64,000 nucleotides of DNA, taken from positions 124,001 through 188,000 of the forward strand of contig JAPSLM010000004.1 in NCBI GenBank assembly GCA_031180825.1, given 5' to 3'. The position numbers and the translations under genes were made by a program. Of the stretch, positions 1 through 41,343 are shown piece by piece; the first letter of the stretch is position 1, and the number at the start of each line of letters is the position of its first letter. This stretch comes from Paenibacillus sp. Its GTDB lineage: Bacteria > Bacillota > Bacilli > Paenibacillales > NBRC-103111. A model generated the notes under the pieces. The model did not search any database, had not been told where the DNA came from, and was given only the letters and a program-made list of their open reading frames with translations.

Positions 1-1218
1 TCCCGGATACGAGGCGCCGTTTTGCTCTTGGAGCTGGCCTGTAACCAGATTGACGATGCGTTCCGCCATTTTGCGGTAGCCGGTCAGCTTGCCGCCGGCG
101 ATGGTAATGAGACCCGAAGGGGCGATGAATATTTCATCCTTCCGCGACAGCTCGGACGGCGACTTGCCGTCTTCGTGGATGAGCGGACGCAGCCCGGACC
201 AGCTGGACTCGACATCGGCCGCCGTCAGCTTGAGGCTCGGGAACATGAAGTTGGCCGCCGTCAAAATATAATCACGGTCGGCCGTCGTCATCCGCGGATG
301 AACGAGATCGCCGCTGTAATTCGTATCGGTGGTGCCGATATACGTTTTGCCGTCGCGCGGAATCGCGAAGACCATGCGGCCGTCCGGCGTATCGAAGTAG
401 ATCGCCTGCTTGAGCGGGAACCGCCCGCCGTCGATGACAAGGTGCACGCCTTTGGTCAAGTGCAGCCGCTTGCCCTGCTTCGAGCCGTCTTTTTCCCGGA
501 TCGTGTCGACCCAAGGTCCGGCGGCATTGACGATTTTGCGGGCGAAGATGTCATACGTTTCGCCGTCCAGCATATCGACGACGCGGACGCCCTTCAGCTT
601 CCCGCCCTCGTAAAGCAGCTCTTCCACCTTCGCATAGTTGACCGCCAGAGCGCCGCGATCCGCAGCGGCTTTCATCGTTTCGATCGTCAGCCGGGCGTCG
701 TCCGTCCGGTATTCGACGTAGTACCCGCCGCCCTTCAGCTTGTCTTCGCGGAGCAGAGGCTCGCGGCGCAGCGTCTCGGCTTTGGACAGCATGACCCGGC
801 GCTCGCTCCGCTTGACGCCCGCCAGCGAGTCGTACATCATCAGTCCGACGGAGGTTGCCAGCTTGCCGTAGGTGCCGCCTTCGATAATCGGCAGCAGCAT
901 CCACTCCGGCGTCGTCACGTGCGGCGCGTTCTCATAGACGATCGCCCGCTCTTTGCCGACCTCGGCCACCAGTTTGAATTCGAGCTGCTTCAAGTAACGC
1001 AAGCCGCCGTGAATCAGCTTCGTGGAACGGCTCGATGTACCCGCGCCGAAGTCCTGCATTTCGACCAATCCGGTTTTCAGACCGCGGGTTTGCGCGTCAA
1101 GCGCGATGCCCGCCCCGGTGATGCCTCCGCCGATGACCAGCAGATCGAGCGGGGCTCCGGCCATTTCCCGCAGCCGTTCTTGTCGGTGTTCCCCTGAAAA
1201 TTGCGCCTGTTTTGTCAT
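1..1218 (-). CDS. glpD: Aerobic glycerol-3-phosphate dehydrogenase, 3' end cut by window edge
   Basis: FAD-dependent oxidation of glycerol 3-phosphate to dihydroxyacetone phosphate at the membrane, feeding electrons to quinone. The reverse-strand frame starts [15 protein letters not shown], carries the FAD Rossmann motif [10 protein letters not shown] at residues 28-37, and shows family segments such as [17 protein letters not shown] and [11 protein letters not shown]. It stays open to base 1, so 406 residues are visible out of the roughly 550 usual for the family; the C-terminal part lies outside the window. The start at 1218 follows a purine-rich GAAAGGGG. A long leader with a terminator-like hairpin lies upstream, as in GlpP-controlled glycerol genes of Bacillus. 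Family identity is secure from the motifs. Confidence 0.95.
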
Positions 1219-1274
1219 GTGTATCGATCCCCTTTCGAAATATGCGGCCGCCCGGTTCCGGGTAAAAGCAAAAA

Positions 1275-1355
1275 AGAGAAGACGTGAAACAACTCTACGT
1301 CGGCACGTCGCTTATCGCATACGCGCTCCTGAAGAGCTTGCTCACGGTCTTCTCT
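1275..1355 (-). promoter_or_regulatory. glpD leader with terminator-like hairpin (candidate GlpP antitermination site)
   Basis: Read on the minus strand, AGAGAAGACCGTGA (1355-1342) can pair with TCACGTCTTCTCT (1287-1275) with one bulged base, and the second arm runs straight into TTTTTT. An internal GACGTG can pair with the CACGTC inside the second arm, so two exclusive folds are possible. In B. subtilis the glpD leader contains a terminator relieved by the antiterminator GlpP with glycerol 3-phosphate. Assignment to GlpP is inference from gene and layout; glpP is not in the window. Confidence 0.55.
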
Positions 1356-1388
1356 TGATCTCTGACCTGAGATTAACTTGTTAACTTT

Positions 1389-1417
1389 ATCATAGCACGA
1401 CACCGGCTTTGGATCAA
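1389..1417 (-). promoter_or_regulatory. SigA-type promoter for glpD
   Basis: Minus strand TTGATC (1417-1412), 17-bp spacer, TATGAT (1394-1389). This places the transcript start near 1382, about 165 nt before the glpD start codon, leaving room for the leader hairpin. Confidence 0.7.
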
Positions 1418-1419
1418 CC

Positions 1420-1449
1420 TTGACAGCGAAATCAGGCTTATGTTAGAGT
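1420..1449 (+). promoter_or_regulatory. Possible promoter, divergent from glpD
   Basis: TTGACA at 1420-1425, 18-bp spacer, extended -10 TG-T-TAGAGT ending at 1449. It lies back to back with the glpD promoter and would serve the short ORF at 1504 and the DUF2071 gene at 1742. Confidence 0.45.
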
Positions 1450-1503
1450 GCCTTTGCAACCATTTTCCTAAATTTGGAGAAATATCCTTGGAGAGGAATC
1501 AAT

Positions 1504-1626
1504 ATGGCGAAGACAGGCTGTTTTAGCGTTGGACCATTTTTGGGATTGGACCAAGGAACGCGAGCTGCGGATTCGAAGCCGGGGGGCAGCGGGAAGCGGG
1601 GCATAATCCCGGCGGGCGGCATGTGA
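1504..1626 (+). CDS. Possible 40-residue peptide or leader ORF
   Basis: ATG at 1504 sits 7-8 nt after GGAGAGG and opens a 40-codon frame ending TGA at 1626. The peptide begins MAKTGCFSVGPF and ends in a glycine and basic-rich stretch with no recognisable domain. It lies between the candidate promoter at 1420-1449 and the DUF2071 gene. The good ribosome binding site is the only real support, and the rest of the 1627-1741 interval is GC-rich with no gene seen. It could be a chance ORF. Confidence 0.25.
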   Translation: MAKTGCFSVGPFLGLDQGTRAADSKPGGSGKRGIIPAGGM

Positions 1627-1741
1627 CGGCGTCCGGGCCGCGCTGCCGGACCCGCAGCCAGCGCGGGGGTAAGTCTCTGGCCGGCCCCGGCCATTGGCGG
1701 AGCTGCGCCCGTTCATAACAATGAGTCTGGGAGGACCGAAC

Positions 1742-2524
1742 ATGGAGCCTGAACGTTTCGATACCGCACACCGCCTGTGGCCGCTGCCCGGGCTGCCGTG
1801 GATCATGAAGCAGACTTGGCGCAATCTGTTGTTTGCCCATTGGCCCGTTTCGGCGGATGAGCTTCGCGCTTACGTGCCGAAGGAGCTGCCCCTGGATACC
1901 TACGAAGGCAGCGCGTGGCTGGCTGTCGTTCCCTTCCGGATGACGGGGATCCGGCTGCGCGGCTTGCCGCCGATTCCGGGGACAAGCCGTTTTCCGGAGC
2001 TTAACGTCAGAACTTACGTTACGCTTCAGGACAAGCCCGGCGTCTACTTTTTCAGCCTTGATGCGGCTCATACGCTCGCCGTCATGCTGGCCAAACGGCT
2101 GTACCATCTTCCGTACTACCGGGCCGATATGGGCGTGACCGTGCAGAACGAGACCGTTTTTTACCGGAGCGCACGCCGGCAGGCCGGCCCCGTCTTCACT
2201 GCTCGGTACCGGCCCGTCTCGGCGCCATATACGGCCAAGCCCGGATCGTTGGAGCATTGGTTGACCGAACGCTACTGCTTATATACCTTGAACGGCCACC
2301 GGGACGTCATGCGCTGCGACATCCATCATCGGCCCTGGCCGCTGCAGAAGGCGGAAGCCGAGCTTTACGAGAATAAGATGCTGACGGGCAACGGCCTTCC
2401 GTTCGAGCCCGACGTTCCCCCGCTGCTTCATTATGCGGAAGCTTTGGAAGTGCGCATATGGCCGCTGCTTAAGGCCGCCGGCCGCGAGTCCCGGCCGGCA
2501 TCCGTTCGACACGAATCCTCCTAG
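1742..2524 (+). CDS. YqjF-type DUF2071 protein
   Basis: A 260-residue member of the DUF2071 (YqjF) family; biochemical role unknown, probably cytosolic. The family is recognised from the N-terminal MKQTWRNLLFAHWPV block, followed by a segment that turns a small molecule-binding-like beta fold (WLAVVPFRMTGIRLRGLPP) and FPELNVRTYV. An in-frame ATG lies 21 nt upstream, but the start at 1742 is preferred because GGGAGG lies 7-8 nt before it. The last 60 codons carry LTGNGLPFEPDVPPLLHY, typical of the C-terminal part of these proteins. It is monocistronic, with a possible promoter at 1420-1449. No clear terminator follows. Confidence 0.8.
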   Translation: MEPERFDTAHRLWPLPGLPWIMKQTWRNLLFAHWPVSADELRAYVPKELPLDTYEGSAWLAVVPFRMTGIRLRGLPPIPGTSRFPELNVRTYVTLQDKPGVYFFSLDAAHTLAVMLAKRLYHLPYYRADMGVTVQNETVFYRSARRQAGPVFTARYRPVSAPYTAKPGSLEHWLTERYCLYTLNGHRDVMRCDIHHRPWPLQKAEAELYENKMLTGNGLPFEPDVPPLLHYAEALEVRIWPLLKAAGRESRPASVRHESS

Positions 2525-2663
2525 CCTTTCGAGCGCCCGGATACTTTCCCGAAACGCCGCTTTTTCTTTCTGTTTTTTGCCTTTTTCAAAAAAGCAAGCC
2601 CGGAAAATGAAAAAAAAGACGCATATTTTGCCAATATCCTGAATGTTTCGTGTCTTTTCGGTG

Positions 2664-2710
2664 TATAATGGAATTATATGAACCTATTATAGTAAACTAT
2701 ATGCATATAG
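2664..2710 (+). promoter_or_regulatory. Promoter -10 plus two operator-like palindromes before the DGQHR operon
   Basis: TATAAT occupies 2664-2669; no good -35 hexamer is visible at 17 bp. Just downstream are two adjacent palindromes: CTAT-T-ATAG at 2684-2692 and the perfect 14-bp CTATATGCATATAG at 2697-2710, separated by TAAA. They share the CTAT/ATAG half-site and lie where a repressor would block initiation or early elongation. The ribosome binding site AAGGAGG of the first gene follows at about 2729. Confidence 0.6.
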
Positions 2711-2744
2711 CTTTACGCGAGGTAAGCCAAGGAGGAAAACGGTA

Positions 2745-3920
2745 ATGGATCAAATTTCATCTCTGTCGGAGCTGCTGGCGGAGCAGAAAGCGTCATCGTA
2801 TATCGAAATCCCCGGGGCCATGTCCCGGACGTTCGGACAGACTACGCTTTCCACCACGCTTCCGATGAGCAAGCTGTTCGCCATCTACGAAGTGGACCTG
2901 GAGGTTCAGCGCTCCATCGTTCCGCAAAACTTGTCCAGGATGATGGACTATATCATGCTCTACCTGGATCACGGACAGGGCATTTATTTTCCGGGCATTA
3001 TCCTCTCGGCCCGTGGAGCGGGAGATTACGATGCGCAGGCGCAGGTTTACCGTTTGCAGGCGATCGAGAAGCTGTACGTCGTGGACGGCCAGCACCGGCT
3101 TGCCGCTTTCCGCCGCCTGATGGAAACGCTGCAAGGCGCGATGGCCCGGGCGAAGGACCGCCGGGAGTACGAACGCATGGAGGAAATCAGCGCGAAGCTG
3201 AGCAAGCTGTACGCCTTCCCTATGTCTACGATGATCTATCTGGACATCAATGCGCGTCAAGAGCGGCAGCTGTTCTCCGACATCAACAAGCTCCCGCGCA
3301 AAATCGGCGGAAATCTGGCGGTTCTCCGCGAGCAGCGCCGGTTCTATCACGTGCTCGCCTCCAGGCTGGTGGAAGAAGCGCCCGTGATGAAGCATCTGCC
3401 TGTCGACATGTTTACGGAGCGGGGCAAAGGGCCGGAATATTTGTTCTCCTACCATTTGCTGATCGAAATTTTGATCGGCTTGTTCGAAGGACGGCTCAAG
3501 TCGGCGGCGCGCAACAACGGGTACTATTTCGAGGAAAAAGAGATCGAAGACCACTTGAAGCTGGCGTCGCTCTATTTCCAAAGCCTGCTCAAGTACTTGC
3601 CGGAGCCGGAAAAGGGCGAGCTGTGCTGGACGGAAAACCTGCAGATCGCGCTGGCGATGTTCTTCCATGACGAAGTGACGAAAACCGGCACGTTCAACAA
3701 ATACGCGCTCGATTATGCGCTCAAAATTTTGCCCCATATCGACTGGAGCGCCATTTACACCGGGGATGAAAAAGACCGCTTGCCAAGACGCTCGCGCATC
3801 GTGAAAGCGTATCAGTTCATCAAAGATTTTTACGTGGAGCACCATATGTTCCTGATCCGCGACGATTCGCCGGGGCAGCAAGCTTTTTCGGAAGAAAGCT
3901 CTAAGGAGGACGTCGGTTAA
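2745..3920 (+). CDS. DGQHR-domain protein A (DndB-like)
   Basis: A 391-residue protein with the hallmark DGQHR at residues 114-118, preceded by hydrophobic IEKLYVV, and the second family motif FSDIN at 177-181. Between them lies a charged helical stretch of about 45 residues (MARAKDRREYERMEEI). The DGQHR/DndB fold is related to the ParB/sulfiredoxin superfamily. In Dnd phosphorothioation systems DndB controls modification frequency and acts as a repressor. Here no dndA, C, D, E, F, G or H gene is near, so that role cannot be assumed. The ATG follows AAGGAGGAAAACGGTA. The next gene starts in the overlapping TAATG, so the two proteins are translationally coupled and probably made in fixed ratio. 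Confidence 0.8.
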   Translation: MDQISSLSELLAEQKASSYIEIPGAMSRTFGQTTLSTTLPMSKLFAIYEVDLEVQRSIVPQNLSRMMDYIMLYLDHGQGIYFPGIILSARGAGDYDAQAQVYRLQAIEKLYVVDGQHRLAAFRRLMETLQGAMARAKDRREYERMEEISAKLSKLYAFPMSTMIYLDINARQERQLFSDINKLPRKIGGNLAVLREQRRFYHVLASRLVEEAPVMKHLPVDMFTERGKGPEYLFSYHLLIEILIGLFEGRLKSAARNNGYYFEEKEIEDHLKLASLYFQSLLKYLPEPEKGELCWTENLQIALAMFFHDEVTKTGTFNKYALDYALKILPHIDWSAIYTGDEKDRLPRRSRIVKAYQFIKDFYVEHHMFLIRDDSPGQQAFSEESSKEDVG

Positions 3921-5092
3921 TGGACGGTTTAAATTTGCAAATGACCATACATCCGTTTTGCGATCGCTTTGGACTCGCAACGGTAGCGATACAAGTGCAG
4001 GATCTGCTTAACTACACCACGATCGATCCGATGGTGCAGCGGAAGCTGAGTGCGGGACAACGCCGCAAAATTTCTAATTACTTGCAGGAGCGCGAGCTCG
4101 ACCGCGTCTTTTTCGGCCCGGTCACCTTAAGCTTGCGCGACGTAAGCAGCCTGGCCAAGGTGCAGAACGGCCTGTACCTGCGTCCCGGCTCGAAGCTGAG
4201 CATTCTGGACGGGCAGCACCGCATTCTCGCTCTCGGTTACGTGAACGAGCAAATGCTCAAAGAAGCGCGCAGCCTGGACAAGAAAGTGGCCGCCATGAAA
4301 ATCAAGCACCGGAAAGCGCCGGACAACGCGGAGATCGCAAGCGAGCTGGAGCAGCTGGAAGGCCAGGTCGAACAGCTGGAACGCCGCCGTCTGGAGCTGA
4401 TGGAAAGCGAGCTGGCGGTGCAAATCTACATCGGGCTCAGCGAGGAAGAAGAGAAGCAGCTGTTCGGGGATATTAACTCCAAGGTTCAGCTCGTCAGCAA
4501 AGAGCTCGGCCATTCGTTCGACTCGATCGATCCGCTCAACGTCGTCATTCAGCAGGTGGTAGACCATAACGTCTTCTTGAAATCGGCGGGCGTGGAGCGC
4601 CGGGCCAACCTGACCGCTTACAATAAAAACTTCACGTCGTTCAGCTGGATGTACTCGACCGCGACGATGCTGTTTACCGGCAAAATGCAGCCGTCCTACG
4701 AGCTGGCGCGACGGATCAAGCAGGACCCGTCCACGTACATCGAAATTTTGCACCAGTTCTACAGCACGCTGATTCCTCTCATGCCGGAGCAGCCGGGGCT
4801 GCCGCAGTACACCTCGTCGTCCCGCGCCATGCAGGAGAGCGTCGCGCTGTATGCGCACCGTCATTTGTTCACGGACGGCAAGTATACGAAAAACTGGACC
4901 AACTGTCTGAACATTTTCGAAGGTTTCGATTGGACGCACGAGAACGAGCAGTTGATCGAGCGCTTCGGAGTGCTGGACAACGGCAAGCTGAACCTGATTC
5001 ACGAAAAATCGCTGCGCAAGCACGCCAAGCTCGTTCAGCTCTTCCAGGAGCTGCATGGCGATCCGGTCGAAGAAGGCGAAGCGTCGGCTTAA
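3920..5092 (+). CDS. DGQHR-domain protein B (DndB-like)
   Basis: A 390-residue paralogue of the preceding protein: DGQHR at residues 97-101, then a predicted coiled coil of about 50 residues (LEQLEGQVEQLERRRLEL), then the FGDIN motif in EEEEKQLFGDINSK. Overall similarity to protein A outside the motifs is low, which suggests an old duplication with separate roles, for example a heteromer. The start overlaps the upstream stop (TAATG) and has AAGGAGG 12-13 nt before it. A rho-independent terminator follows at 5133. The function is unknown; a DNA-binding or nucleotide-dependent regulatory role is inferred only from the family. Confidence 0.8.
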   Translation: MDGLNLQMTIHPFCDRFGLATVAIQVQDLLNYTTIDPMVQRKLSAGQRRKISNYLQERELDRVFFGPVTLSLRDVSSLAKVQNGLYLRPGSKLSILDGQHRILALGYVNEQMLKEARSLDKKVAAMKIKHRKAPDNAEIASELEQLEGQVEQLERRRLELMESELAVQIYIGLSEEEEKQLFGDINSKVQLVSKELGHSFDSIDPLNVVIQQVVDHNVFLKSAGVERRANLTAYNKNFTSFSWMYSTATMLFTGKMQPSYELARRIKQDPSTYIEILHQFYSTLIPLMPEQPGLPQYTSSSRAMQESVALYAHRHLFTDGKYTKNWTNCLNIFEGFDWTHENEQLIERFGVLDNGKLNLIHEKSLRKHAKLVQLFQELHGDPVEEGEASA

Positions 5093-5132
5093 GGCTTAAA
5101 GAAGCTGTGGCCGGAGGCAATATATAAAGTAG

Positions 5133-5165
5133 GCGTTCCTGCATAGCATGCGGGGGCGCTTTTTT
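5133..5165 (+). terminator. Terminator of the DGQHR operon
   Basis: Hairpin GCGTTCCTGCAT / ATGCGGGGGCGC with an AGC loop, followed by TTTTTT. Confidence 0.85.
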
Positions 5166-5185
5166 GATGTGTAAGGAGGGACAGG

Positions 5186-5377
5186 ATAGAGGAACACATA
5201 ACGATTCCCGAAGGTCTTAATATGGTTGATGCAAGGCGGCGGTTCAAGGAAAATATTGGGAGCGTGCTCGTGTCAAATGAACGGATAAGGTGTGTTAAAC
5301 GGGGATTTGCAGCGTTGTATCGGAATAGCGGAACCGGAGATACCTTAATCGTGTCGAAAAAAGTTCATATCCCCTAA
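5186..5377 (+). CDS. Small ORF with no standard start at its ribosome binding site
   Basis: An open frame of 63 codons ends TAA at 5375-5377. The strong Shine-Dalgarno AAGGAGGG (5174-5180) is followed after 5 nt by ATA at 5186, not ATG. The first in-frame ATG is at 5222, 41 nt from the Shine-Dalgarno, giving 51 residues (MVDARRRFKENIG...KKVHIP). The peptide is basic and hydrophilic, without a recognised domain. It could use a rare ATA start, start at 5222, or be a gene inactivated by an ATG-to-ATA change. It begins directly after the terminator of the DGQHR operon, and no promoter of its own is clear. Confidence 0.35.
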   Translation: MEEHITIPEGLNMVDARRRFKENIGSVLVSNERIRCVKRGFAALYRNSGTGDTLIVSKKVHIP

Positions 5378-5711
5378 AATGAGACGATTAACGCACCACA
5401 GATTCTCTATGCTGTAATGCCGGGCCGATTTTGATGATATAGAGTACGTGAGTTCCGCTAATTTTTTGTAAGCTTCATCTTGCCTCGCCGGATGCCGGAT
5501 GCCGGATGCCGGATGGCCGCACGCAATCCGCACCAACCCCGCGCCATCGCTCTTGCGATCCGGAGCCTGGAGCTTCGCCGCTCCGTCGCACCCGCCCCCC
5601 GCCCTTCGGCCATTCTCCACGAACCCTGATCGCCAATTTCCTGTTCCCGGCTCCTCCCGACACTTCGCCATCCGTTTTCGATATAGCTTGGACGCCCCGG
5701 CTCCGCCCCGA
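5378..5711. other. Gap without a convincing gene
   Basis: The stretch is AT-rich at first, then proline-codon-like and C-rich. The open frames on both strands here overlap one another and lack ribosome binding sites. The only ordered element is the heptamer repeat at 5487-5514. No terminator for the ROK gene ending at 5712 was found. Confidence 0.6.
5487..5514. repeat. Four tandem copies of GCCGGAT
   Basis: Perfect 7-bp unit repeated four times, followed by GGCC. It is short enough to be slippage-prone and could vary between strains. Confidence 0.9.
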
Positions 5712-6920
5712 TTAAACCGCGCCCAGCTTGTTCACGATCAGCAGCGCCGCCCCGGTGGCGAGCGCCTCTTCGCCGAGCGCGCCTTGGCTGAACACGACCT
5801 GGTATTTGGGATAATAGTACGTTCTTTGAATCGCGACGCGCGTCGCGGTATGGAAGAAGCCGGGGTGGCCGCCGATCAAGGCGCCGCCCAAAATGACCTT
5901 CTCCGGGTGCAGTATGTTAAGCAGGTTGGACAACCCGATGCCGAAATAAGTGGCTGCCTGCGCAAACAGCTCGACCGTCAGCGGATCCCCGGCCTGCAGC
6001 GCCTGCTGGAGATGGGCGAAACCGATTTTCTCCGGGTCGGGTTCCAGCCGGAGAAGCAGGCTGTCGCGGCCTTGCTTGAGCCGGGCTTGCGCTTGCTGCT
6101 CCAGCGCATGAATGGAAGCGTACGATTCGAGCGCGCCGAAATTGCCTTGATTCCATAGGCGGGGGCCGTCCGTTTGGATAATCATTTGGCCGATCGATCC
6201 TTCCATATCGACCGCCCCGTAGACGACCTGCCCGTTCGTCATCATGGCCGAACGCAAGCCGACGCCGACGTGAACATACAGCAAATGACGGTAGTCGCGC
6301 TCGCGGTCCGACCACGATTCGCCGATGAGCGCCGTATTTGCTCCGTTATCGAGCAGAACCGGGAAGCCGAGGCGGCTCTCGAGGAAGCCGGTGACGCTGA
6401 CATTTTTCCAGCCGGAAGCGGCGAAATGAAGCGGCTCCAGCAGTATGCCGGACGCCCGGTCCAGCGGTCCGACAGCCCCGATGCCCATCCCGAGCACCTT
6501 GTCGGCGGGAAGAGAGCGGCGATCCAGCATGGCGCGGGCTTCGGTCACGATCTCTTCCAGCAGCACCCCGGGGGTGACGTTCTCCGTCATGACCCAGCGC
6601 TTGCTGTCCAGCTTGTTCAGCTGCAGGTCGAACAAAATGAGCTTGGAATACATCCGCGATATATCCAGCCCGAACACATAGGCATAATCGGGATTGACCG
6701 TATACAAAATCGGCCTGCGCCCTCCGGTCGATTCGCCGAAGCCGGCCTCCGCAATAACCCCTTGGGCCGTTAATTCCTCCAGCGTCCGGGTCAAGGTGCT
6801 GCCCGTCAGCCCGCTTTTCTCCAGCAGATCGATCTTGGAGACCGTCCCCTGCTTGCGGATCTGCTCGAAAATTTCTTTATGCTTGCGCCCGGCGATGCGG
6901 TGCTCAATGGAGTTTTTCAT
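5712..6920 (-). CDS. ROK-family transcriptional regulator without the usual zinc ligands
   Basis: A 402-residue protein with an N-terminal winged helix (about residues 15-70; VSKIDLLEKSGLTGSTLTR is the recognition region, GGRRPILY the wing) joined to a ROK sugar-kinase-like domain (GIGAVGPLDRASG, VLLDNGANTALIGE). This is the NagC/XylR layout, normally a sugar-responsive repressor. The family usually has E-x-G-H and a C-x-C-G-x-x-G-C zinc site. Here the matching stretch reads MEGSIGQMI and LWNQGNFGALES, with no cysteines and no histidine, so zinc-linked coupling is probably lost. It stands alone on the minus strand with no sugar genes beside it, so its target cannot be named. Confidence 0.88.
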   Translation of the reverse strand: MKNSIEHRIAGRKHKEIFEQIRKQGTVSKIDLLEKSGLTGSTLTRTLEELTAQGVIAEAGFGESTGGRRPILYTVNPDYAYVFGLDISRMYSKLILFDLQLNKLDSKRWVMTENVTPGVLLEEIVTEARAMLDRRSLPADKVLGMGIGAVGPLDRASGILLEPLHFAASGWKNVSVTGFLESRLGFPVLLDNGANTALIGESWSDRERDYRHLLYVHVGVGLRSAMMTNGQVVYGAVDMEGSIGQMIIQTDGPRLWNQGNFGALESYASIHALEQQAQARLKQGRDSLLLRLEPDPEKIGFAHLQQALQAGDPLTVELFAQAATYFGIGLSNLLNILHPEKVILGGALIGGHPGFFHTATRVAIQRTYYYPKYQVVFSQGALGEEALATGAALLIVNKLGAV

Positions 6921-7132
6921 ATTTTTCCTCCGTTGCCAGAAGGGTTTCTTTGGTTTTTCAACCGTTAATTATACTACAGTCCCGGGCGCCCCGCTATCCT
7001 TCCTTGGGGAAAACGAAGTCCGGCCTTAGCGCCGACGGCGTCTTCGAACAAATGCGTGCGTTCCGGCGTGACCTTCTGGTAAAATAGGGCTTAGTTTGTC
7101 CAGCAAGCTGGGATAGAAGGGACGAAAGCGAA

Positions 7133-7870
7133 ATGACCGAATGGTTCGAAAAAAGCTTCGGACGGGATTACCTCCTGGTCTATAAGCATCGCGATATGCA
7201 GGGCGCTTATGAGGAAGTACGCCGGATGATGGAATGGCTGGAGCTGCCCGAGGGAGCCGAGGTGCTCGACTTGTGCTGCGGTATGGGGCGGCATTCTATG
7301 GCGCTGAATGGATTCGGTTTCCGGGTCACCGGAGTCGACTTGTCGGAGGTGCTGCTTGCGGAAGCGAGAAGGCTGGATACCGCGGGCGAAGTGCGCTGGA
7401 TTCACGGGGATATGCGCAGCGTGCCGTTAACCGGTCAGTTCGATGCGATCGTCAATTTGTTCACGTCGTTCGGCTATTTTTCCGGTGATCGGGACAACGA
7501 GCAGGTGCTGCGGGAAATGTACCGTCTGCTCGCGCCGGGCGGTCGGTTCATTATCGATTATTTGAATCCCGCGTATGTGGCGGCGCACCTGGTGCCGCAT
7601 TCGGTGAGAACCGTCGAAGGAATCCATATCGACGAGAAACGCCGGATCGAGGATGGATTCGTGCGCAAAACGATCGTACTGCAGGACGGGGTGGGATCGG
7701 ACGAACGGATCTACGAGGAGCAGGTGAAGCTGATCGGACGGGAGCGTTTCCTGGAAATGCTCGAGCTGGCAGGGCTGAAAATCGATGCCGTTTACGGCGA
7801 TTACGACGCTTCCGCCTACGAGCCTGAGGCATCGAAGCGAATGATCTTTGTCGGCAGGAGGGACGCGTAA
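7133..7870 (+). CDS. Class I SAM-dependent methyltransferase
   Basis: 245 residues with motif I VLDLCCGMGRH at residues 44-54, the acidic end of motif II near VTGVDLS, a GDMRSVPL segment around residue 95, and FDAIVNLFTSFGYF as motif IV. This is the Rossmann-type methyltransferase fold; the CCGMGRHS variant is common in small-molecule methyltransferases. The substrate cannot be read from the sequence. A weak -10 TAAAAT lies at 7080-7085. The stop at 7870 is one base before the next ATG, so it is cotranscribed with the MBL-fold gene. Confidence 0.85.
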   Translation: MTEWFEKSFGRDYLLVYKHRDMQGAYEEVRRMMEWLELPEGAEVLDLCCGMGRHSMALNGFGFRVTGVDLSEVLLAEARRLDTAGEVRWIHGDMRSVPLTGQFDAIVNLFTSFGYFSGDRDNEQVLREMYRLLAPGGRFIIDYLNPAYVAAHLVPHSVRTVEGIHIDEKRRIEDGFVRKTIVLQDGVGSDERIYEEQVKLIGRERFLEMLELAGLKIDAVYGDYDASAYEPEASKRMIFVGRRDA

Positions 7871-7871
7871 T

Positions 7872-8870
7872 ATGGACGGAGCGCCATCAAGCCGCCACGG
7901 GAACGTGACGAAACACGGCGACGTGCTGCAGATCAAGGTGCCTCTGCCGTTTCCGCTGCGCTGGGTGAACAGCTATTTGCTGCCGGGGGAGCACGGCTGG
8001 ACGCTGATCGATCCGGGCCTGCGGACGGAGGCGGCCGAAGCCGTCTGGTCGTTGGCGCTAGCGGAGCTTGGGCTCGGCTATTCGGACATCGACCGAATCG
8101 TGCTGACGCATCATCATCCGGACCATTACGGGCTGGCCGGGTGGTTTCAAGAGCGTACCGGCGCGCCCGTGCTGATGTCGCGGAGCGGGCTTGAGCAGAC
8201 GCGCTTGCTCTGGGGAGACGGCCAGCCGATGACCCAGCGGATGATCGGACTTTTCCGGCGGGAAGGGCTGCCGGAGGAGCTGGCGAAGCCGCTGGAAGAG
8301 CATATGGAAAGCTTTGTCGCGTCCGTTTCGCCGCAGCCGGAGGTCACCGTCGTGGAAGCCGGGGAGCGCGTAAGACTCGGCCGCGAGGAATACGAAGCGA
8401 TTGAGACGCCGGGACATGCCGCAGGGCATTTGTGCTTCTACCGCGAGGAGACGGGCGTCATGTTCTGCGGGGATCACGTGCTTCCGCAAATATCCCCGAA
8501 CGTCAGCTACTTGCCCGGAGGGATCGACGAGAACCCGCTTGCCAGCTATTTGGCCAGCTTGAAAGCGATTCGACGCTACGAGGTGCGGCTCGCATTTCCC
8601 GGTCACCGGGAGCCCTTCGGCGGCCTTCAGCAGCGGGCCGACGAGCTGCTCGCCCATCATGCGGAGCGTCTGGAGGCGATGCGGTCGAAGCTTGCGGAGC
8701 CGGCAACGGCGTATCACGTATGCCGGGCGACCTTCGGGGAGCGGCTTAGCCTGCATCAGCTGCGCTTTGCGCTCTCGGAAACGCTCGCGCACCTGATCTG
8801 GCTGCGCGAAGCCGGCAAGCTGACCGAAAGCGTGCGCGAGGGGCTCGTATTGTACCGGCAAGCGCAGTAG
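7872..8870 (+). CDS. MBL-fold metallo-hydrolase
   Basis: 332 residues of the metallo-beta-lactamase fold. The zinc motif THHHPDHYG is at about residues 79-87, a later histidine in ETPGHAAGHL and an aspartate in MFCGDHVL complete the two-metal site, and FPGHREPF supplies the last histidine. The C-terminal 90 residues form a helical extension seen in YflN-like and glyoxalase-like relatives. An in-frame TTG exists at 7848, but ATG 7872 has AGGAGGG upstream at the right distance. The substrate is unknown; probably a thioester or phosphodiester hydrolase of the cytosol. Confidence 0.85.
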   Translation: MDGAPSSRHGNVTKHGDVLQIKVPLPFPLRWVNSYLLPGEHGWTLIDPGLRTEAAEAVWSLALAELGLGYSDIDRIVLTHHHPDHYGLAGWFQERTGAPVLMSRSGLEQTRLLWGDGQPMTQRMIGLFRREGLPEELAKPLEEHMESFVASVSPQPEVTVVEAGERVRLGREEYEAIETPGHAAGHLCFYREETGVMFCGDHVLPQISPNVSYLPGGIDENPLASYLASLKAIRRYEVRLAFPGHREPFGGLQQRADELLAHHAERLEAMRSKLAEPATAYHVCRATFGERLSLHQLRFALSETLAHLIWLREAGKLTESVREGLVLYRQAQ

Positions 8871-8912
8871 AGATGCAATTGCCGGTTTCGGCCAGCCGCC
8901 GCCGTGCGTCAT

Positions 8913-8934
8913 GGCTCCGTTTTCGAACGGAGCC
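8913..8934 (+). terminator. Hairpin with UUCG tetraloop after the MBL gene
   Basis: GGCTCCGTT-TTCG-AACGGAGCC, nine perfect pairs with a stable tetraloop. The downstream T-run is poor (TGTTGCGTTTTGG), so it may end transcription inefficiently or protect the 3' end. Confidence 0.6.
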
Positions 8935-9071
8935 TGTTGCGTTTTGGACATGGCAGATATCAGGGGGTAAGTTTTGGAATAAAAAGGGAGTCATTGGGAA
9001 ATAGTAGATGATCTGCAACGTTTTTTTGTTCACGGTTATCGGACTATTTTTTCAACTGGAGGCGGCTTCCT

Positions 9072-10148
9072 TTGAACATAAAACGAAGCTTGGCGAACCG
9101 GGCCGTATCGCTGTCGCTTGCTGCGGCTTGCCTGCTGCCCGTGGCGGGGTGCGTCCGCTTGACGGATGCGGAGCCCCGTGCATTGCAAACGGAGGAAGCG
9201 CGGCTCGTTGCCGCGGGCATTGACGAAGGCCGCGGCGGCCTTCGCGTAACGACAGGCTACGGCCCGCCTGGGTCCGGCCGCCCGCTGCGGCCTTACTCGA
9301 ACGACGGTCCGCGGACGCAATCGTTCGTTTCGTTCCAGGCAGCGGCTTATCGTTGGGAGCGGCAGCGGCCGCCGGAGCTTGTGGCGATTGGCGAAGCTTG
9401 GGCGCGTTCGCACGGTTTTCCCGCCTCGTGGACGAGGCAGATCCGGATGCTCGGCGTGAAGCAGGGCCGCAGACCGCTTGTGGCGGTGGTGGAAGGGACG
9501 GCCGAGCGGTTCGTCGGCAGCCCGGACGCAATGACCGGCGGCATTGCGCGGCTCCGGGAAGGGGGCTGGACTGCGGACCCGCTGCGCTTCGCGGGAAGCG
9601 CGTACGAGGACGATGTAGTCCTGCCCTATTTGCCGGCAAGCTCGGCCGAGGCGGATAATCTTACCAACGGATCAGGTGTTTCAATCCGGGCGCTTGTGTT
9701 TAAGAAGCAGGAGCTTGCCGCCGAGCTGACCGCGGCCCAAAGCAATCTTCTTGCCTGCATGATGGGCGGGTACGGTCTGCCGAAGCTCGAATGGTCTTCG
9801 TCGGAGACGACGTTTGCTACCGATTCGCCGCTGCTGCGCAATATTACTTGCCGGGCCGAAATTGCGAGCAACGGCGATTTGAAGCAGCCCCGGCTGAACC
9901 TTGTGATGCGGGTGGCGGCTTCGCCCGGCGGACCACCCGTTTCCGCCGATAGCTGGGCATCGAACCTGCGGCGGCAGGGAACGGAATTGATCCGGTTGTT
10001 TCAAGGCCTGCGCTCCGATCCGCTGCGCTTGGGGGAGTCCGTACGGCAGCAATATCCTGGCGTGTGGAACCAGGACCGCTGGCGCGACGCTCTCACCCGC
10101 GCCCGAATCGATCTGCAGGTCAGGGTTACATTCGACGGAGGTGCTTGA
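9072..10148 (+). CDS. Divergent Ger(x)C-like lipoprotein, orphan
   Basis: 358 residues starting at TTG 9072 after CTGGAGGCGG. The N-terminus is a lipoprotein signal with lipobox PVAG-C near residue 27. Three places fit the Ger(x)C (GerAC) germinant-receptor subunit family: AAGIDEGRGG shortly after the lipobox, LVAIGEAWARSHGF in the position of the conserved IGE-x-x-A-x-x-G segment, and a C-terminal ELIRLFQGLRSDPLRLGES followed by QQYPGVWNQDRW, matching the family's sDifgfG...kyPk.Wk ending. Typical members are 370-400 residues. No A or B subunit gene is adjacent. It probably sits on the outer face of the spore inner membrane if functional. The assignment rests on pattern similarity only. Confidence 0.6.
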   Translation: MNIKRSLANRAVSLSLAAACLLPVAGCVRLTDAEPRALQTEEARLVAAGIDEGRGGLRVTTGYGPPGSGRPLRPYSNDGPRTQSFVSFQAAAYRWERQRPPELVAIGEAWARSHGFPASWTRQIRMLGVKQGRRPLVAVVEGTAERFVGSPDAMTGGIARLREGGWTADPLRFAGSAYEDDVVLPYLPASSAEADNLTNGSGVSIRALVFKKQELAAELTAAQSNLLACMMGGYGLPKLEWSSSETTFATDSPLLRNITCRAEIASNGDLKQPRLNLVMRVAASPGGPPVSADSWASNLRRQGTELIRLFQGLRSDPLRLGESVRQQYPGVWNQDRWRDALTRARIDLQVRVTFDGGA

Positions 10149-10228
10149 ACACTTGAAGCCGGAGAACACCTATATTGCTCGAAATAAACGGCAAAGCCTT
10201 AAGGCTCGAACAGACTCCCAATAAAAAG

Positions 10229-10258
10229 CGGCGCTCTCTCCTGAACGGAGAAGCGCCG
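10229..10258. terminator. Bidirectional terminator
   Basis: CGGCGCTCTCTCC-TGAAC-GGAGAAGCGCCG hairpin between convergent genes, with AAAAA on one side and TTTT on the other. Confidence 0.8.
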
Positions 10259-10265
10259 TTTTCCA

Positions 10266-10781
10266 TTACGCCCGTGTTTCTTCCTTTTCTTTTTGCTTGC
10301 GGTGGGCGATGCGGCTGCTGGCGGACGCCGCAATGGCGCCGACGATATCGTCGAGGAACGTGTGCTTGTGCTCGCCGCTTTTGTCGTTCAGCCGCCCGAC
10401 CAGCCCAGGCTTGAGTTTGTCGATATATCCAAAGTTGGTGAGCCCGATGCTGCCGTACACATTGACGATGGACAGAGCCAAAATTTCGTCGCAGCCGTAC
10501 AGCCCCTCGTCGTTTACAATCATCTCCTGAAGCGGCGACAGCAGCTTGCCTTCCTCGGCCAGCACGTCGAGCTGAATCCCCGTCAGAATGGCATTCTGCA
10601 CTTCCCGCTTGCCGAGGACCTGCTCCACGCTTTCCCGGCATTCGTCCATTGTCAAGCTGGAGTAGTAGTCTTTTTGCAGAAAATACGTAAGCTCCGCTAT
10701 ATCTTCCATCGTCACGCCGCGCTTTGTCAGCCAAAAGGCCGAAGCTTCGGCAACCTGCTTGCTGTTCAAGCTATAGCTCAT
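10266..10781 (-). CDS. Phosphatidylglycerophosphatase A-related protein (YutG-type)
   Basis: 171 residues. The C-terminal half carries the PgpA family pattern: YGSIGLTNFGYIDKLKPGLV, then HTFLDDIVGAIAASASSRIAH, where the paired aspartates of the LDD motif are the likely metal ligands. The N-terminal half is helical. PgpA removes phosphate from phosphatidylglycerol phosphate, but the YutG-like Bacillus forms are short, soluble-looking and of unproven activity, so the true substrate is uncertain. It is preceded on the same strand by the diguanylate cyclase gene with 10 bp between them, so the two are likely cotranscribed. Confidence 0.75.
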   Translation of the reverse strand: MSYSLNSKQVAEASAFWLTKRGVTMEDIAELTYFLQKDYYSSLTMDECRESVEQVLGKREVQNAILTGIQLDVLAEEGKLLSPLQEMIVNDEGLYGCDEILALSIVNVYGSIGLTNFGYIDKLKPGLVGRLNDKSGEHKHTFLDDIVGAIAASASSRIAHRKQKEKEETRA

Positions 10782-10791
10782 AGAGGCCTCC

Positions 10792-11664
10792 TTAAAAATC
10801 CGAGAAAAACCGGAAATGGTTTTTGCCTTGCTGCTTCGATGCGTACATCGCCGTATCGGCGCGCTGCAGCAGCGTTTCGATATCGTGCCCGTCCTCGGGA
10901 TAGCACGAGACGCCGATGCTGCCCGTAATGCTCATGGTCTGGCCGTTCAGCTCGAAAGGCTGGTTCAGCGTCTGCGCGATTCTGCCGACGACCTTGGCAA
11001 TATCTTCCCGATGCTCGAACTGCTGCAGCAGCACGACGAACTCGTCGCCGCCCATCCGGCAGACCGTATCCGGTTCCCGGATGGAATACGAGAGGCGGGA
11101 AGCGGCCATGGTCAAGAGCTCGTCGCCGGTGGCATGGCCGTATGTATCGTTAATCCGTTTAAAATCATCGAGGTCCAAGTAAATGACGGCCAGCTTATGG
11201 CGGTAACGCTTCGCTATCTGCAGCGATTGCGTAAAGCGGTCTTGAAACAGCCTGCGGTTCGGGAGCTGGGTCAACGGATCATAGTAAGCGAGACGGGTCA
11301 GCCGCTCTTCCTGCCGCTTGAACGCCGTGATGTCTTTGGCGGCCAGGGCGGCCTGCCATCCCGAGGACTTGCAAGCTAACGGATATCCCCGACCTTCCAG
11401 CCATACGAGAGCTCCGTCCGGCAGCACGGCCCGGAACGTCATGGCGAACGGTTCGCGTTCTTGAACCAGTCGGAGGCAGGCCTGCTGCAGCGGAAGGAGA
11501 TCGGTTTCGTATATCCAGCGGTACAATGCCGAACCGTAGTTGGACTTTGGGGATAAGCCGACCGGCGAACCGGTTTCGTCGAATACCCAAAGCCAATCCG
11601 GCGATTGAAGCACAACGGCCCGGTATAGGTCGTCAGGCGCGAAATCTTGAAGACGGTTTTCCAT
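10792..11664 (-). CDS. PAS-GGDEF diguanylate cyclase
   Basis: 290 residues: a PAS-like sensor (about residues 12-120; DWLWVFDETG, FRAVLPDGALVWLEGRG) followed by a GGDEF domain (about 125-288). The intact GGDEF at residues 205-209 predicts synthesis of cyclic di-GMP from two GTP. The inhibitory site R-E-P-D lies at 196-199, five residues before GGDEF, so product inhibition is expected. No transmembrane segment is seen, hence a cytosolic sensor. The ribosome binding site AAGAGGTGA precedes the ATG, and a promoter lies at 11699-11728. Confidence 0.93.
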   Translation of the reverse strand: MENRLQDFAPDDLYRAVVLQSPDWLWVFDETGSPVGLSPKSNYGSALYRWIYETDLLPLQQACLRLVQEREPFAMTFRAVLPDGALVWLEGRGYPLACKSSGWQAALAAKDITAFKRQEERLTRLAYYDPLTQLPNRRLFQDRFTQSLQIAKRYRHKLAVIYLDLDDFKRINDTYGHATGDELLTMAASRLSYSIREPDTVCRMGGDEFVVLLQQFEHREDIAKVVGRIAQTLNQPFELNGQTMSITGSIGVSCYPEDGHDIETLLQRADTAMYASKQQGKNHFRFFSDF

Positions 11665-11698
11665 GGAAAATCACCTCTTTTTGGAAAAACACACCTCT

Positions 11699-11728
11699 AT
11701 TATAGGCTTTTAGTACTGTATAAATCAA
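11699..11728 (-). promoter_or_regulatory. SigA-type promoter of the GGDEF gene
   Basis: Minus strand TTGATT (11728-11723), 18-bp spacer, perfect TATAAT (11704-11699), 35 bp upstream of the start codon. Confidence 0.65.
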
Positions 11729-11861
11729 GGAGATATCGGTCCAAAGTACCATTATTTTAATCTTCCTCCGAATCGGACAAATGGGTGTCATAAACTTGTC
11801 TGCCGCCCGTATACATAAAAGTAAAAACGGACAACACCCCAATATCAAGGAGGAAACATGC

Positions 11862-12902
11862 ATGAAACAATACAAATGGATACGATGGGCCGCCGCTGCC
11901 GGAATGGTCGTTCTGCTTGCCTCCGGCTGCTCGCTACCGGGAAAGAAGGAACAGTCTCAGCAAATCGATCCTCCGCCGGCCGGAGCGGACGCCATGGCCA
12001 CAAGCGGCAAAGTGTCCCAGACGGTTGCAAACCCGATGCAGGTGACGATTTACGCCAAGGACGAGAAAGGGTTCGTCGCTCCGATTGCCGTTCAAGTCGA
12101 AAAGACGCAGGGCGCCGCCCGCAAGGCGCTTGAATACATGGTGGACGGCGGTCCGGTACAAGGACGTCTGCCGGCCGGATTCACAAGCCTGCTTCCCAAA
12201 GGTACCGAAATCAAAGGCATTAATATCGTGGAGGATCAAAAGCTGGCTATCGTTGATTTTTCCAAAATGTTTGCGGATTATAACCTGCAGGACGAAAGAA
12301 AAATTATGGAAGCCGTCACCTGGACCTTGACGGGCTTTCCTTCGGTGGAGAAAGTGCAGCTTCGGGTCGAGGGCAAGCCTTTGAAAGAGATGCCGGTCGG
12401 CGGCACGCCGCTTGACGAACCGCTGACCCGTGCGGTCGGCATCAATGTGGAGAAGCCGGAAAGCGTGGAATACGGACAATCGACGCCGGTCACACTGTAC
12501 TTTTTAAACCAGAATCAGGAAAATTACAGCTATTATGTGCCTGTCACCCGGCTTGTCCCAAGGACGGACAACGTCGCGGAAGCGGTGGTCCGGCAGCTCA
12601 TTGCGGGACCGGATCAGAAGAAGGGGCTGGTTGCCGTTATGGCACCGGGAGCCGAGCTCCTGAAAGTGGAAAAAACAGACGAGTTGATTACGGTCAATTT
12701 CTCGGACAAAATGCTCGGCCCGGATAAAAAAGCGCCTGCCGAAGCGCTGAAAGCGGTCGTTTTATCGCTCACGGAAAATACGAACGCGGCCGCCAAGGTG
12801 CAAATTCTCGTAAACGGCGACGCCAAAGTAAGCGCGACCGACAATCAGAGCTACGCGAAGCCCGTATCCCGGCCCCAGACCGTGAATCAGCTTAAGCTGT
12901 AG
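11862..12902 (+). CDS. gerM: Sporulation/germination lipoprotein GerM
   Basis: 346 residues. It starts at ATG 11862 after AAGGAGGAAACATGC rather than at the earlier in-frame ATG 11781. The signal peptide MKQYKWIRWAAAAGM ends in lipobox LASG-C. Two GerMN domains follow, recognised from the repeated pattern LLPKGTEIKGINIVEDQK...VDFS and APGAELLKVEKTDELITVNFS. GerM is needed for proper septal peptidoglycan and engulfment in sporulation and for germination in Bacillus. It precedes rph and rdgB as in B. subtilis. A terminator follows it, so rph has its own promoter. Confidence 0.92.
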   Translation: MKQYKWIRWAAAAGMVVLLASGCSLPGKKEQSQQIDPPPAGADAMATSGKVSQTVANPMQVTIYAKDEKGFVAPIAVQVEKTQGAARKALEYMVDGGPVQGRLPAGFTSLLPKGTEIKGINIVEDQKLAIVDFSKMFADYNLQDERKIMEAVTWTLTGFPSVEKVQLRVEGKPLKEMPVGGTPLDEPLTRAVGINVEKPESVEYGQSTPVTLYFLNQNQENYSYYVPVTRLVPRTDNVAEAVVRQLIAGPDQKKGLVAVMAPGAELLKVEKTDELITVNFSDKMLGPDKKAPAEALKAVVLSLTENTNAAAKVQILVNGDAKVSATDNQSYAKPVSRPQTVNQLKL

Positions 12903-40518: not shown

Positions 40519-41343
40519 ATGGTCACTCAAACCTGGTTGTACGATGTCATTTTATATATTTATGCCCTGAGCCTCCTGTTTTACTTCTCGGACTTTGTCG
40601 GTCCGAACCGAAGTGCAAAGCGGATGGGGACAGGGTTGCTTTCTTTTGTATGGGTGCTGCAAACCGCCTATTTAATCTATAGCCTGGTCACGCACGGCAA
40701 GCTGTCGGCGTTTTCCATGTTCGAAACGCTTTTTATTTTATCCTGGCTGCTTGTGACCGTCTCGCTGATCGTGAACCGCTTTTTCAGAATCGAGCTGTTC
40801 GTGTTCTTGGTCAACGTGTTCGGATTCGCGACGTTCGCGCTTAATGTCTTCAGCCGGCCGGGACTGGCGCCGACCTTGTCGCATTGGAATATTAACGACG
40901 AGCTGCTGTTCATTCATATCACGCTGGCGATTTCCGGCTATGCGGCCTTTGTCGTATCCGCCATCTTTTCGGGCATGTACTTGTTCCTGCACCGCAAGCT
41001 GAAGGAAAAGCGGTGGTCGCAGCAAATGCTGCGGCTGCCGAGTTTGGAGAATACGGACCGTTACGCGTTTATTTCCGTAGTGATCGGAGCTCCGCTTCTG
41101 CTGCTTACGCTGTCGCTGGGGATCGTCTGGATCGCGCTGGAGGGCGATTTCATGCTCTTCTTCGATCCGAAGGTGCTGAATTCGTGGTTCGTGCTGCTGG
41201 CTTATATTTTTTATTTGTTTCAACGGTTGGTGATGAAAGCGGCGGGCAACCGGCTGGCGTTGTGGAACTTGGCCGCGTTTGTCATCACGCTGCTCAACTT
41301 TTTGTTGGCCAACCAATATTCGAACTTCCATCAATGGTATTGA
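40519..41343 (+). CDS. hemX: HemX, CcsA-like membrane protein
   Basis: 274 residues with eight hydrophobic helices (for example LYDVILYIYALSLLFYFSDF, FETLFILSWLLVTVSLIVN, FVITLLNFLLANQY). It belongs to the cytochrome c assembly/CcsA fold. In B. subtilis hemX is the second gene of the hem operon and lowers the amount of HemA. A role in regulated proteolysis or heme sensing of HemA is known only in outline. Start ATG 40519, after GGAAAGGAAC, 15 bp behind hemA: same operon. Confidence 0.9.
   Translation: MVTQTWLYDVILYIYALSLLFYFSDFVGPNRSAKRMGTGLLSFVWVLQTAYLIYSLVTHGKLSAFSMFETLFILSWLLVTVSLIVNRFFRIELFVFLVNVFGFATFALNVFSRPGLAPTLSHWNINDELLFIHITLAISGYAAFVVSAIFSGMYLFLHRKLKEKRWSQQMLRLPSLENTDRYAFISVVIGAPLLLLTLSLGIVWIALEGDFMLFFDPKVLNSWFVLLAYIFYLFQRLVMKAAGNRLALWNLAAFVITLLNFLLANQYSNFHQWY

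Follow-up and report, generated by a model that had tools for sequence, protein, structure and literature searches.

A known relative of the genes treated here is DndB, a regulator which binds the promoter of its own operon (PMC4507180). In Salmonella the operator of DndB consists of TACG-N10-CGTA palindromes located in its own promoter (PMC4507180). The DGQHR domain has been proposed to adopt a ParB/sulfiredoxin (ParB/Srx) fold with the signature QR, DGQHR and FxxxN (PMC4619093). In the ParB-CTPase fold the arginine of a GxxR motif is needed for binding of nucleoside triphosphates (NTP); a DndB-like protein binds ATP and GTP, and mutants of the GxxR arginine lose binding (PMC12704722). The main reading of DndB-type proteins is that they regulate DNA sulfur modification, and they are annotated accordingly. 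Here we analyse a stretch of 64,000 nucleotides from Paenibacillus sp. (GenBank assembly GCA_031180825.1, contig JAPSLM010000004.1, positions 124,001 to 188,000 of the forward strand), in the following called the window, in which two adjacent genes, A and B, both code for proteins of this type. The protein family is known; as far as can be told, a two-gene, Dnd-independent and family-wide module is new.

Both proteins are members of the Pfam DndB family PF14072, with 57.2 bits for A and 75.6 bits for B against a cut-off of 29.1. Because of these scores the resemblance to DndB is not due to chance, and a chance occurrence of the motif could be ruled out. The general DGQHR domain model of NCBIfam, TIGR03187, gives 56.4 bits for A and 58.6 bits for B, narrowly under its curated cut-off of 58.85, and the DndB equivalog model, TIGR03233, gives 19.5 and 24.8 bits, far under its cut-off of 328. 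The Pfam search of A and B also found a weak similarity, below the cut-off, to the GmrSD N-terminal domain PF03235 (E 4e-5 and 3e-3), and no match to a helix-turn-helix, nuclease, DUF1524/HNH or ParB-type DNA-binding domain. The three motifs of the DGQHR domain are found in A (Q55-R56, D114-R118, F177-N181) as well as in B (Q40-R41, D97-R101, F182-N186) and are invariant in 21 aligned family members. We read the G-Q-H-R of A and B as agreeing with GxxR, the P motif in the ParB-CTPase fold; a ParB/Srx fold of A and B would follow by analogy from the literature on the family (PMC4619093; PMC12704722). Searches of the PDB with profiles of A and B gave no solved homologue with a significant score, the non-significant matches being to coiled coils, SspE (E 0.13) and unrelated proteins. 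In PADLOC-DB 2.0.0 the matches are weak and partial (DndB, Orf5 and DpdE models, the best being B to DndB with 1.2e-8), and A and B are not recognised there as members of one listed anti-phage system; the PHROGs matches of both are also weak and partial. PF14072 is over the cut-off in the Bacillus subtilis control genome, too.

The distribution of the pair was followed in 99 genomes of the family (Paenibacillaceae by named kin, own genome included), which represent 22 genera. A and B occur in the same 84 genomes, the same 15 are without either, and not a single genome carries only one of them. The pair is present in 14 of the sampled genera, usually in one copy. Unbroken copies are 66-100% identical to the window's protein, for A and for B alike, and the window's B is 98-99% identical to the B of several same-genus genomes. 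The named loci of the window's clade belong to Paenibacillus, one Cohnella and one unclassified Paenibacillaceae record. A first-pass annotation of this DNA had described the genes as a stable orphan pair, and the search for adjacent pairs across genomes agrees with it, since the pair is retained in the family without single genes, is independent of Dnd (see below), and occurs sporadically elsewhere in the class. In one genome both A and B are broken in pieces, from sequencing error or decay (G070:C1:2919037-2921109). Another family genome (G042) has the core pair and elsewhere a B of the divergent kind described below, which has no intact A beside it in the list of open reading frames (L101 9472-10557).

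Gene order was compared in 81 loci picked by similarity to B (73 named family loci and 8 divergent ones from other Bacilli). A precedes B in all 81, and everywhere the upstream gene scores better on the A profile and the downstream gene better on the B profile. The stop codon of A and the start codon of B overlap by one base in 67 of the 73 named family loci and by four bases in 4 more; the one-base overlap is found in 0 of the 8 divergent loci, where the genes are at most 5 bases apart or overlap when the start of the longest frame is used. The neighbourhood differs by genus group, with cobalamin genes in many and ROK and methyltransferase genes in others (21 loci, some of the names given by eye). 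No constant third gene was seen across the 21 family loci, nor across the divergent loci. As the neighbourhood changes between genus groups, the pair is kept as a unit without a third partner gene. A fusion of A in L156, with a frame of 2010 amino acids, was rejected because the extra part is a run of unknown bases, and L156 was left out of the upstream set used below.

Selection was estimated as the ratio of nonsynonymous to synonymous substitution rates (dN/dS), the window being compared with as many as 13 related loci. B has a median of 0.036 and A, for which one comparison with undefined dS was excluded, a median of 0.069; seven neighbouring genes, one of which had two comparisons only, have medians of 0.079-0.327. 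A and B thus have the lowest medians of the nine genes, and B lies under every neighbour in every comparison. This is closer to the selection on a housekeeping part than to that on an arms-race gene.

A and B are full-length, old paralogues within the DGQHR/DndB family. Their profiles align with each other over 314-327 columns, most of the length of the proteins, with an hhalign probability of 100. A tree was built from 74 proteins; in it the family's A proteins group with those of the divergent pairs (support 93/82), the B proteins of both kinds likewise (91/94), and the canonical DndB and its kin are found on a separate branch (99/96). The split of A and B seems to be older than the spread of the pair, and both seem to have been kept since; keeping both through such divergence would be hard to explain unless both are needed together. 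A two-subunit complex of A and B is plausible from the constant order, the overlapping frames and a paralogue split which apparently preceded the diversification of the pair.

One possible reading is that A and B regulate a Dnd phosphorothioation system encoded elsewhere in the genome, and their membership of PF14072 speaks for it. The window's own genome holds two PF14072 matches, which are A and B, and a dnd cluster elsewhere in it, looked for by way of dndC (TIGR03183), gave no match in the 85% complete assembly; dndD and dndE were not searched. Among this genome and 39 relatives 5 have DndC over the cut-off, namely four same-genus genomes and one that belongs to another family, and these five are exactly the genomes which have a canonical full-length DndB (416-432 bits) beside DndC. 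All 24 other same-genus genomes carry the A-B pair. The four with DndC (of 25 with the own genome counted) have Dnd at a separate locus with its own adjacent DndB, and dndC is not over the cut-off in the remaining 20, two of which (G007, G009) show weaker matches. From the distribution of DndC and the separate DndB it follows that the pair and Dnd are separate and able to coexist. The pair is independent of Dnd, as far as dndC tells, and to this extent the first-pass annotation was right in placing it without Dnd modification genes. The TACG-N10-CGTA pattern is absent near the pair; its sole exact match in the window, at 41062, is at chance level. Regulation of Dnd by the pair was rejected on these grounds together with the TIGR03233 scores; the proposal is already largely contradicted and we consider it highly improbable. 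As the pair is found in 84 of the 99 family genomes while 21 of the 25 same-genus genomes are without dndC over the cut-off, an annotation as DndB is probably misleading.

Outside the family the relatives of the pair are few. Of 298 other genomes of the class 6 match the B profile at E 1e-8, and 5 of them have an adjacent A-type gene. In the wider phylum 6 of 397 other genomes match at E 1e-10 with one match each, and in the tree these fall with the canonical DndB. From class genomes, named genomes, viral contigs and a plasmid collection a total of 12 distinct divergent pairs was examined: those of Planococcus, Pseudalkalibacillus, Bacillus sp. OV166, Lentibacillus, Bacillus haikouensis, Tumebacillus, Bacillus sp. 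HF117 and the Priestia megaterium plasmid p6, one on a viral contig and three from further genomes. In each of them the first gene is better on the family A profile and the second on the B profile, although for the B of L099 the margin is small (77.8 vs 82.6 bits). Eight of the divergent pairs were compared with the window's proteins and are 23-27% identical to them.

At least 4 of the 12 divergent pairs are located near known defence genes, a lower bound and not a rate, because the scan covered chosen neighbours from 6 of the loci. Gabija GajA/GajB is found near the pair on the Priestia plasmid p6 (L082) and in L099, Septu PtuA together with a Schlafen-type helicase in Bacillus sp. OV166, and an OLD/RT-Toprim-like ATPase on the viral contig. 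Other divergent pairs are near recombinases or insertion sequences. In Planococcus halocryophilus (L102 1743-9065) some 5 kb separate the pair from rlmH, a large serine recombinase is located between the two, and a resolvase is also present, a setting which by eye we take to resemble an island of the staphylococcal cassette chromosome (SCC) type. Eleven such proteins were also searched for in all these loci. With self-matches counted, the defence queries hit 4 and the mobile queries 5 of the 12 divergent loci, and none of the eleven hit any of the 73 family loci; this is a partial control as the queries were taken from the divergent loci.

Some of these loci deserve a comment of their own. On plasmid p6 (L082, 6869-14781) the pair, both genes of which are annotated as DndB, is followed by a DUF4365 protein of 599 amino acids and then by GajB/GajA. 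In Bacillus sp. OV166 a third, distant DGQHR protein (L104 15976-16983) stands beside the A-B pair, PtuA and the helicase. The very divergent pair at L098 8494-10630, in which the second protein is without DGQHR, may be a version with one active subunit. In the plasmid collection 2 records match B, while the Priestia A has matches in 22 records and the Priestia B in 12, and among these the p6 region alone was examined for a pair. Of 22 viral-contig loci, L182 has the pair, 9 have one weak match to the A or B profile and 12 have none. Nineteen phage records (Pseudomonas phages) give partial matches over 12-29% of B, and some are annotated as DNA sulfur modification proteins.

Between the motifs the proteins of the window carry charged insertions, which had been pointed out in the first-pass annotation and which stand out against the divergent pairs (38 columns in B, 6/6; about 11 in A, 5/6). 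That the B insertion is a coiled coil is only hinted at, by its charged, repetitive look and by a PDB match to leucine zippers which is not significant (E 0.04) and whose profile positions, 79-135, overlap the insertion in part.

A conserved block is found upstream of A. It is composed of TGAATGTTT, 12 bases, GTGTATAATG and then TATATGAACCTA and a TATAGTAA stretch. The upstream set comprised 71 regions, 3 of the 73 named family loci being left out for want of a clear A start, and the block was recognised in 27 of them. Several of the 27 are near-copies, and 21 are left after removal of those more than 90% alike. The flanks are not conserved, and the distance from the block to the start codon varies between 79 and 228 bases. 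A core of 31 base pairs was searched with up to 2 mismatches. All of the same-genus genomes searched (9 of 9) have it at a single place, which lies upstream of A, and the reversed control gave 0 matches; it was found in 0 of 4 genomes from other families. A second pattern, over the right half of the block, has a single match in the window's own genome. A regulon of the block was ruled out, as the core was found only upstream of the pair in the nine genomes having it. A second lineage has a different conserved sequence of 25 bases, TTGGTAAAAATAGGAGAATGAGAGA, upstream of A in 24 of the 71 regions (e.g., L136, L142, L150), and this one, too, is present once per genome in 10 of 10 genomes searched. 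A single-copy site serving one operon is what an autoregulator would need, and an unusual promoter would look alike; by analogy with DndB, autoregulation at the block is probable. A perfect 14-base palindrome, CTATATGCATATAG, is located at 2697-2710 between the block and the ribosome-binding site, and is shared by the window's closest relatives and not by the wider group. Rfam at its gathering threshold finds no known RNA element in positions 1-12000 of the window.

As A and B are kept together and little changed across much of the family, they are probably one two-part, nucleotide-driven switch. In the proposed model a single dedicated protein machine is built from two subunits, A and B. Each subunit would bind NTP, probably ATP or GTP, via the GxxR of its DGQHR motif, and the NTP state would open or close an A:B clamp on nucleic acid, while the charged inserts would hold the two subunits together. 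The nucleotide-gated clamp of ParB is the mechanistic analogue for such a switch. By acting at the single-copy upstream block the complex would also tune the promoter of its genes, much as the dnd promoter is controlled by DndB. Because the relatives in other Bacilli sit in mobile and defence-island settings, the pair was probably first used in the conflict with invading DNA; in the window's family it would have been domesticated and would now serve the cell regularly as a nucleic-acid or nucleotide-state switch. We infer the heteromer, the use of NTP, the nucleic-acid target, the autoregulation and the domestication from a defence origin. Given the conserved GxxR and the literature on NTP binding, we commit ourselves to an NTP-binding A:B heteromer. 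An obligate heteromer of ParB/Srx-type NTP-binding proteins, encoded by two genes under a promoter of their own and domesticated in this family, is a tentative proposal, and we put it somewhat short of an even chance. The fuller version, in which an A:B heteromer with NTP-gated nucleic-acid binding came from a mobile island, became a near-core control device in much of the family and regulates itself at a single-copy operator, earns appreciably less credit and must be called doubtful.

Two other explanations have to be considered. The pair could be a still-active two-gene system against phages or plasmids which senses invading DNA or modified nucleotides, acts as a nucleotide-degrading or nicking effector, and is kept permanently by this clade. 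The company of the divergent pairs (Gabija at 2 loci, Septu plus the Schlafen-type helicase at 1, the OLD/RT-Toprim-like ATPase at 1) and the location of one of them on a Priestia plasmid point in this direction. DndB-type proteins have moreover been proposed as nucleotide-degrading or nuclease effectors (PMC10853773), and such a role of the pair is a live rival. However, the occurrence of both genes in the same 84 of 99 genomes and their low dN/dS are unlike the usual turnover of defence genes, the 11 queries have no homologue near the pair in the 73 family loci (with the partial control noted above), and the PADLOC matches are weak and partial. The suggestion of a defence device in the first-pass annotation can thus be retained for the divergent, sporadic relatives, some of which are near Gabija, Septu or recombinases; the window's clade fits it less well, because here the pair is present in whole genera and strongly constrained, and the few defence and mobile families tested are not nearby. 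For this clade we regard active defence as rather unlikely.

A plain housekeeping role unrelated to invaders, for example as a pair of transcription regulators or as an enzyme of nucleotide metabolism, with the island copies as hitch-hikers, would agree with a pair that is widespread in the family, usually single-copy, strongly constrained and preceded by a conserved upstream block. It is harder to reconcile with the sporadic pairs outside the family (5 of 298 other class genomes), several of which are in mobile settings, with the lack of any conserved partner gene besides A and B themselves, and with whole sampled genera that are without the pair. We find this explanation unlikely, if by no means far-fetched.

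The proposed A:B switch has its own difficulties. Co-occurrence and overlapping frames are also expected of two proteins in one pathway which never touch each other, and Pfam recognises no helix-turn-helix or nuclease domain in A or B. The pair is not essential everywhere, because 8 of the 22 sampled genera are without it. In the tree the supports of the A group (93/82) and the B group (91/94) are moderate, short of what the tool itself counts as firm; L104 15976 and L100 (a single protein), which were assigned to A or B by score, are placed outside the group of their label, and L019, on a very long branch, is placed among the B proteins. In the aligned divergent B proteins the position of Q40, from the QR pair, is N, and the B of L098 without DGQHR is a known exception which lies outside the 40-protein alignments. 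The dN/dS of A is not under that of some neighbours in 4 close comparisons (L111, L116, L118, L119). Upstream, 20 of the 71 regions carry neither conserved element, a sigma-70 consensus scan lists no site at 2639-2696, and the block present in the 27 regions may be just a promoter for another factor.

The coordinates of the features are collected in Table 1. The open reading frames and their coordinates, the positions of DGQHR (A 114-118, B 97-101), the F-[SG]-D-I-N motifs and the TAATG overlap given in the first-pass annotation were all confirmed by the sequence. A and B are arranged head to tail, and each has a strong Shine-Dalgarno site as read in the sequence. According to Pfam the upstream neighbour is a DUF2071 gene, and downstream follow a ROK gene on the opposite strand, a methyltransferase gene and a gene for a metallo-beta-lactamase fold. 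The DUF2071 and ROK neighbours are those named earlier, yet they are not constant (2 and 4, respectively, of 21 loci compared). The upstream block, the near-core status and the sporadic relatives are features which go beyond that annotation.

Table 1. Positions in the window of the A-B gene pair and of the sequence elements belonging to it
Feature	Positions	Strand	Evidence
Conserved promoter/operator-like block CTGAATGTTT-N12-GTGTATAATGGAA..TATATGAACCTATTATAGTAA	2639..2696	+	motif in 27/71 upstream regions; core once in window
Ribosome-binding site AGGAGG of gene A	2730..2735	+	read in sequence; conserved in upstream alignment
Gene A, DGQHR/DndB-type, first of pair, 391 amino acids	2745..3920	+	open reading frame; PF14072 57.2 bits (cut-off 29.1); in the same 84/99 family genomes as B
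A motif DGQHR, residues 114-118	3084..3098	+	invariant in 40 aligned A proteins
A insertion, about 11 residues (130-140)	3132..3164	+	absent or nearly so in 5/6 divergent A proteins; present in L098
A motif F-S-D-I-N, residues 177-181	3273..3287	+	F177, D179, N181 the same in all 40 A proteins aligned
Ribosome-binding site AAGGAGG of gene B, within the end of A	3903..3909	+	read in sequence
TAATG stop/start overlap of A and B	3918..3922	+	A stop TAA 3918-3920, B start ATG 3920-3922, one base in common
Gene B, DGQHR/DndB-type, second of pair, 390 amino acids	3920..5092	+	open reading frame; PF14072 75.6 bits; in 84/99 family genomes
B motif DGQHR, residues 97-101	4208..4222	+	invariant in 40 aligned B proteins
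B charged insertion, 38 residues (106-143), possibly coiled coil	4235..4348	+	absent from 6/6 aligned divergent B proteins
B motif F-G-D-I-N, residues 182-186	4463..4477	+	F182, N186 the same in all 40 B proteins aligned
Terminator-like hairpin after B, 14 pairs, T tail	5131..5161	+	hairpin scan; 3 found vs 3.1 expected in region, i.e., chance level, supportive only

Whether the pair had already been characterised was checked in the literature. No description of a paired, Dnd-free DGQHR module was found in the accessible parts of the papers searched, few of them from subscription journals (PMC4507180, PMC4619093, PMC12704722, PMC10853773, PMC11662687, PMC3226654 and PMC12839542 included). If the model is true, the pair would be a system with the DndB fold which works as a heteromer and without DNA phosphorothioation; no such system was found described in the same literature. 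The pair offers a clean test of the DGQHR fold's own role and is a natural candidate for a heteromeric nucleotide switch of the ParB type. It also looks like the domestication of a module from mobile defence islands.

Among the known systems, DpdB of 7-deazaguanine DNA modification is alike in being a ParB-like ATPase used with a DNA-modifying enzyme (PMC12839542). The window's pair, set against DpdB by description only, differs in having no modification gene among the immediate neighbours identified by Pfam. GmrSD/DUF262 proteins (SspE, DndI) have a related ParB/Srx-type N-terminal domain with a DGQQR motif, to which the weak PF03235 match of A and B corresponds, but A and B are without a DUF1524/HNH nuclease domain recognised by Pfam. 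The ParB CTPase of chromosome segregation belongs to the same proposed superfamily according to a fold survey (PMC12704722); it is a homodimer, whereas A and B would be two different subunits and are without a Pfam ParB-type DNA-binding domain. With DndB (PF14072; TIGR03233) the pair shares the Pfam domain family and the DGQHR motif, and it differs from DndB in consisting of two distinct paralogues in one operon, in that no dndC was found in its own genome, in scoring far under the equivalog cut-off and in its separate branch in the tree. The divergent A-B pairs of other Bacilli have the same order of A and then B and proteins in the same A or B groups of the tree; they differ in their low identity of 23-27% (8 compared), in being without the B insertion and in their sporadic occurrence, several of them in mobile or defence settings.

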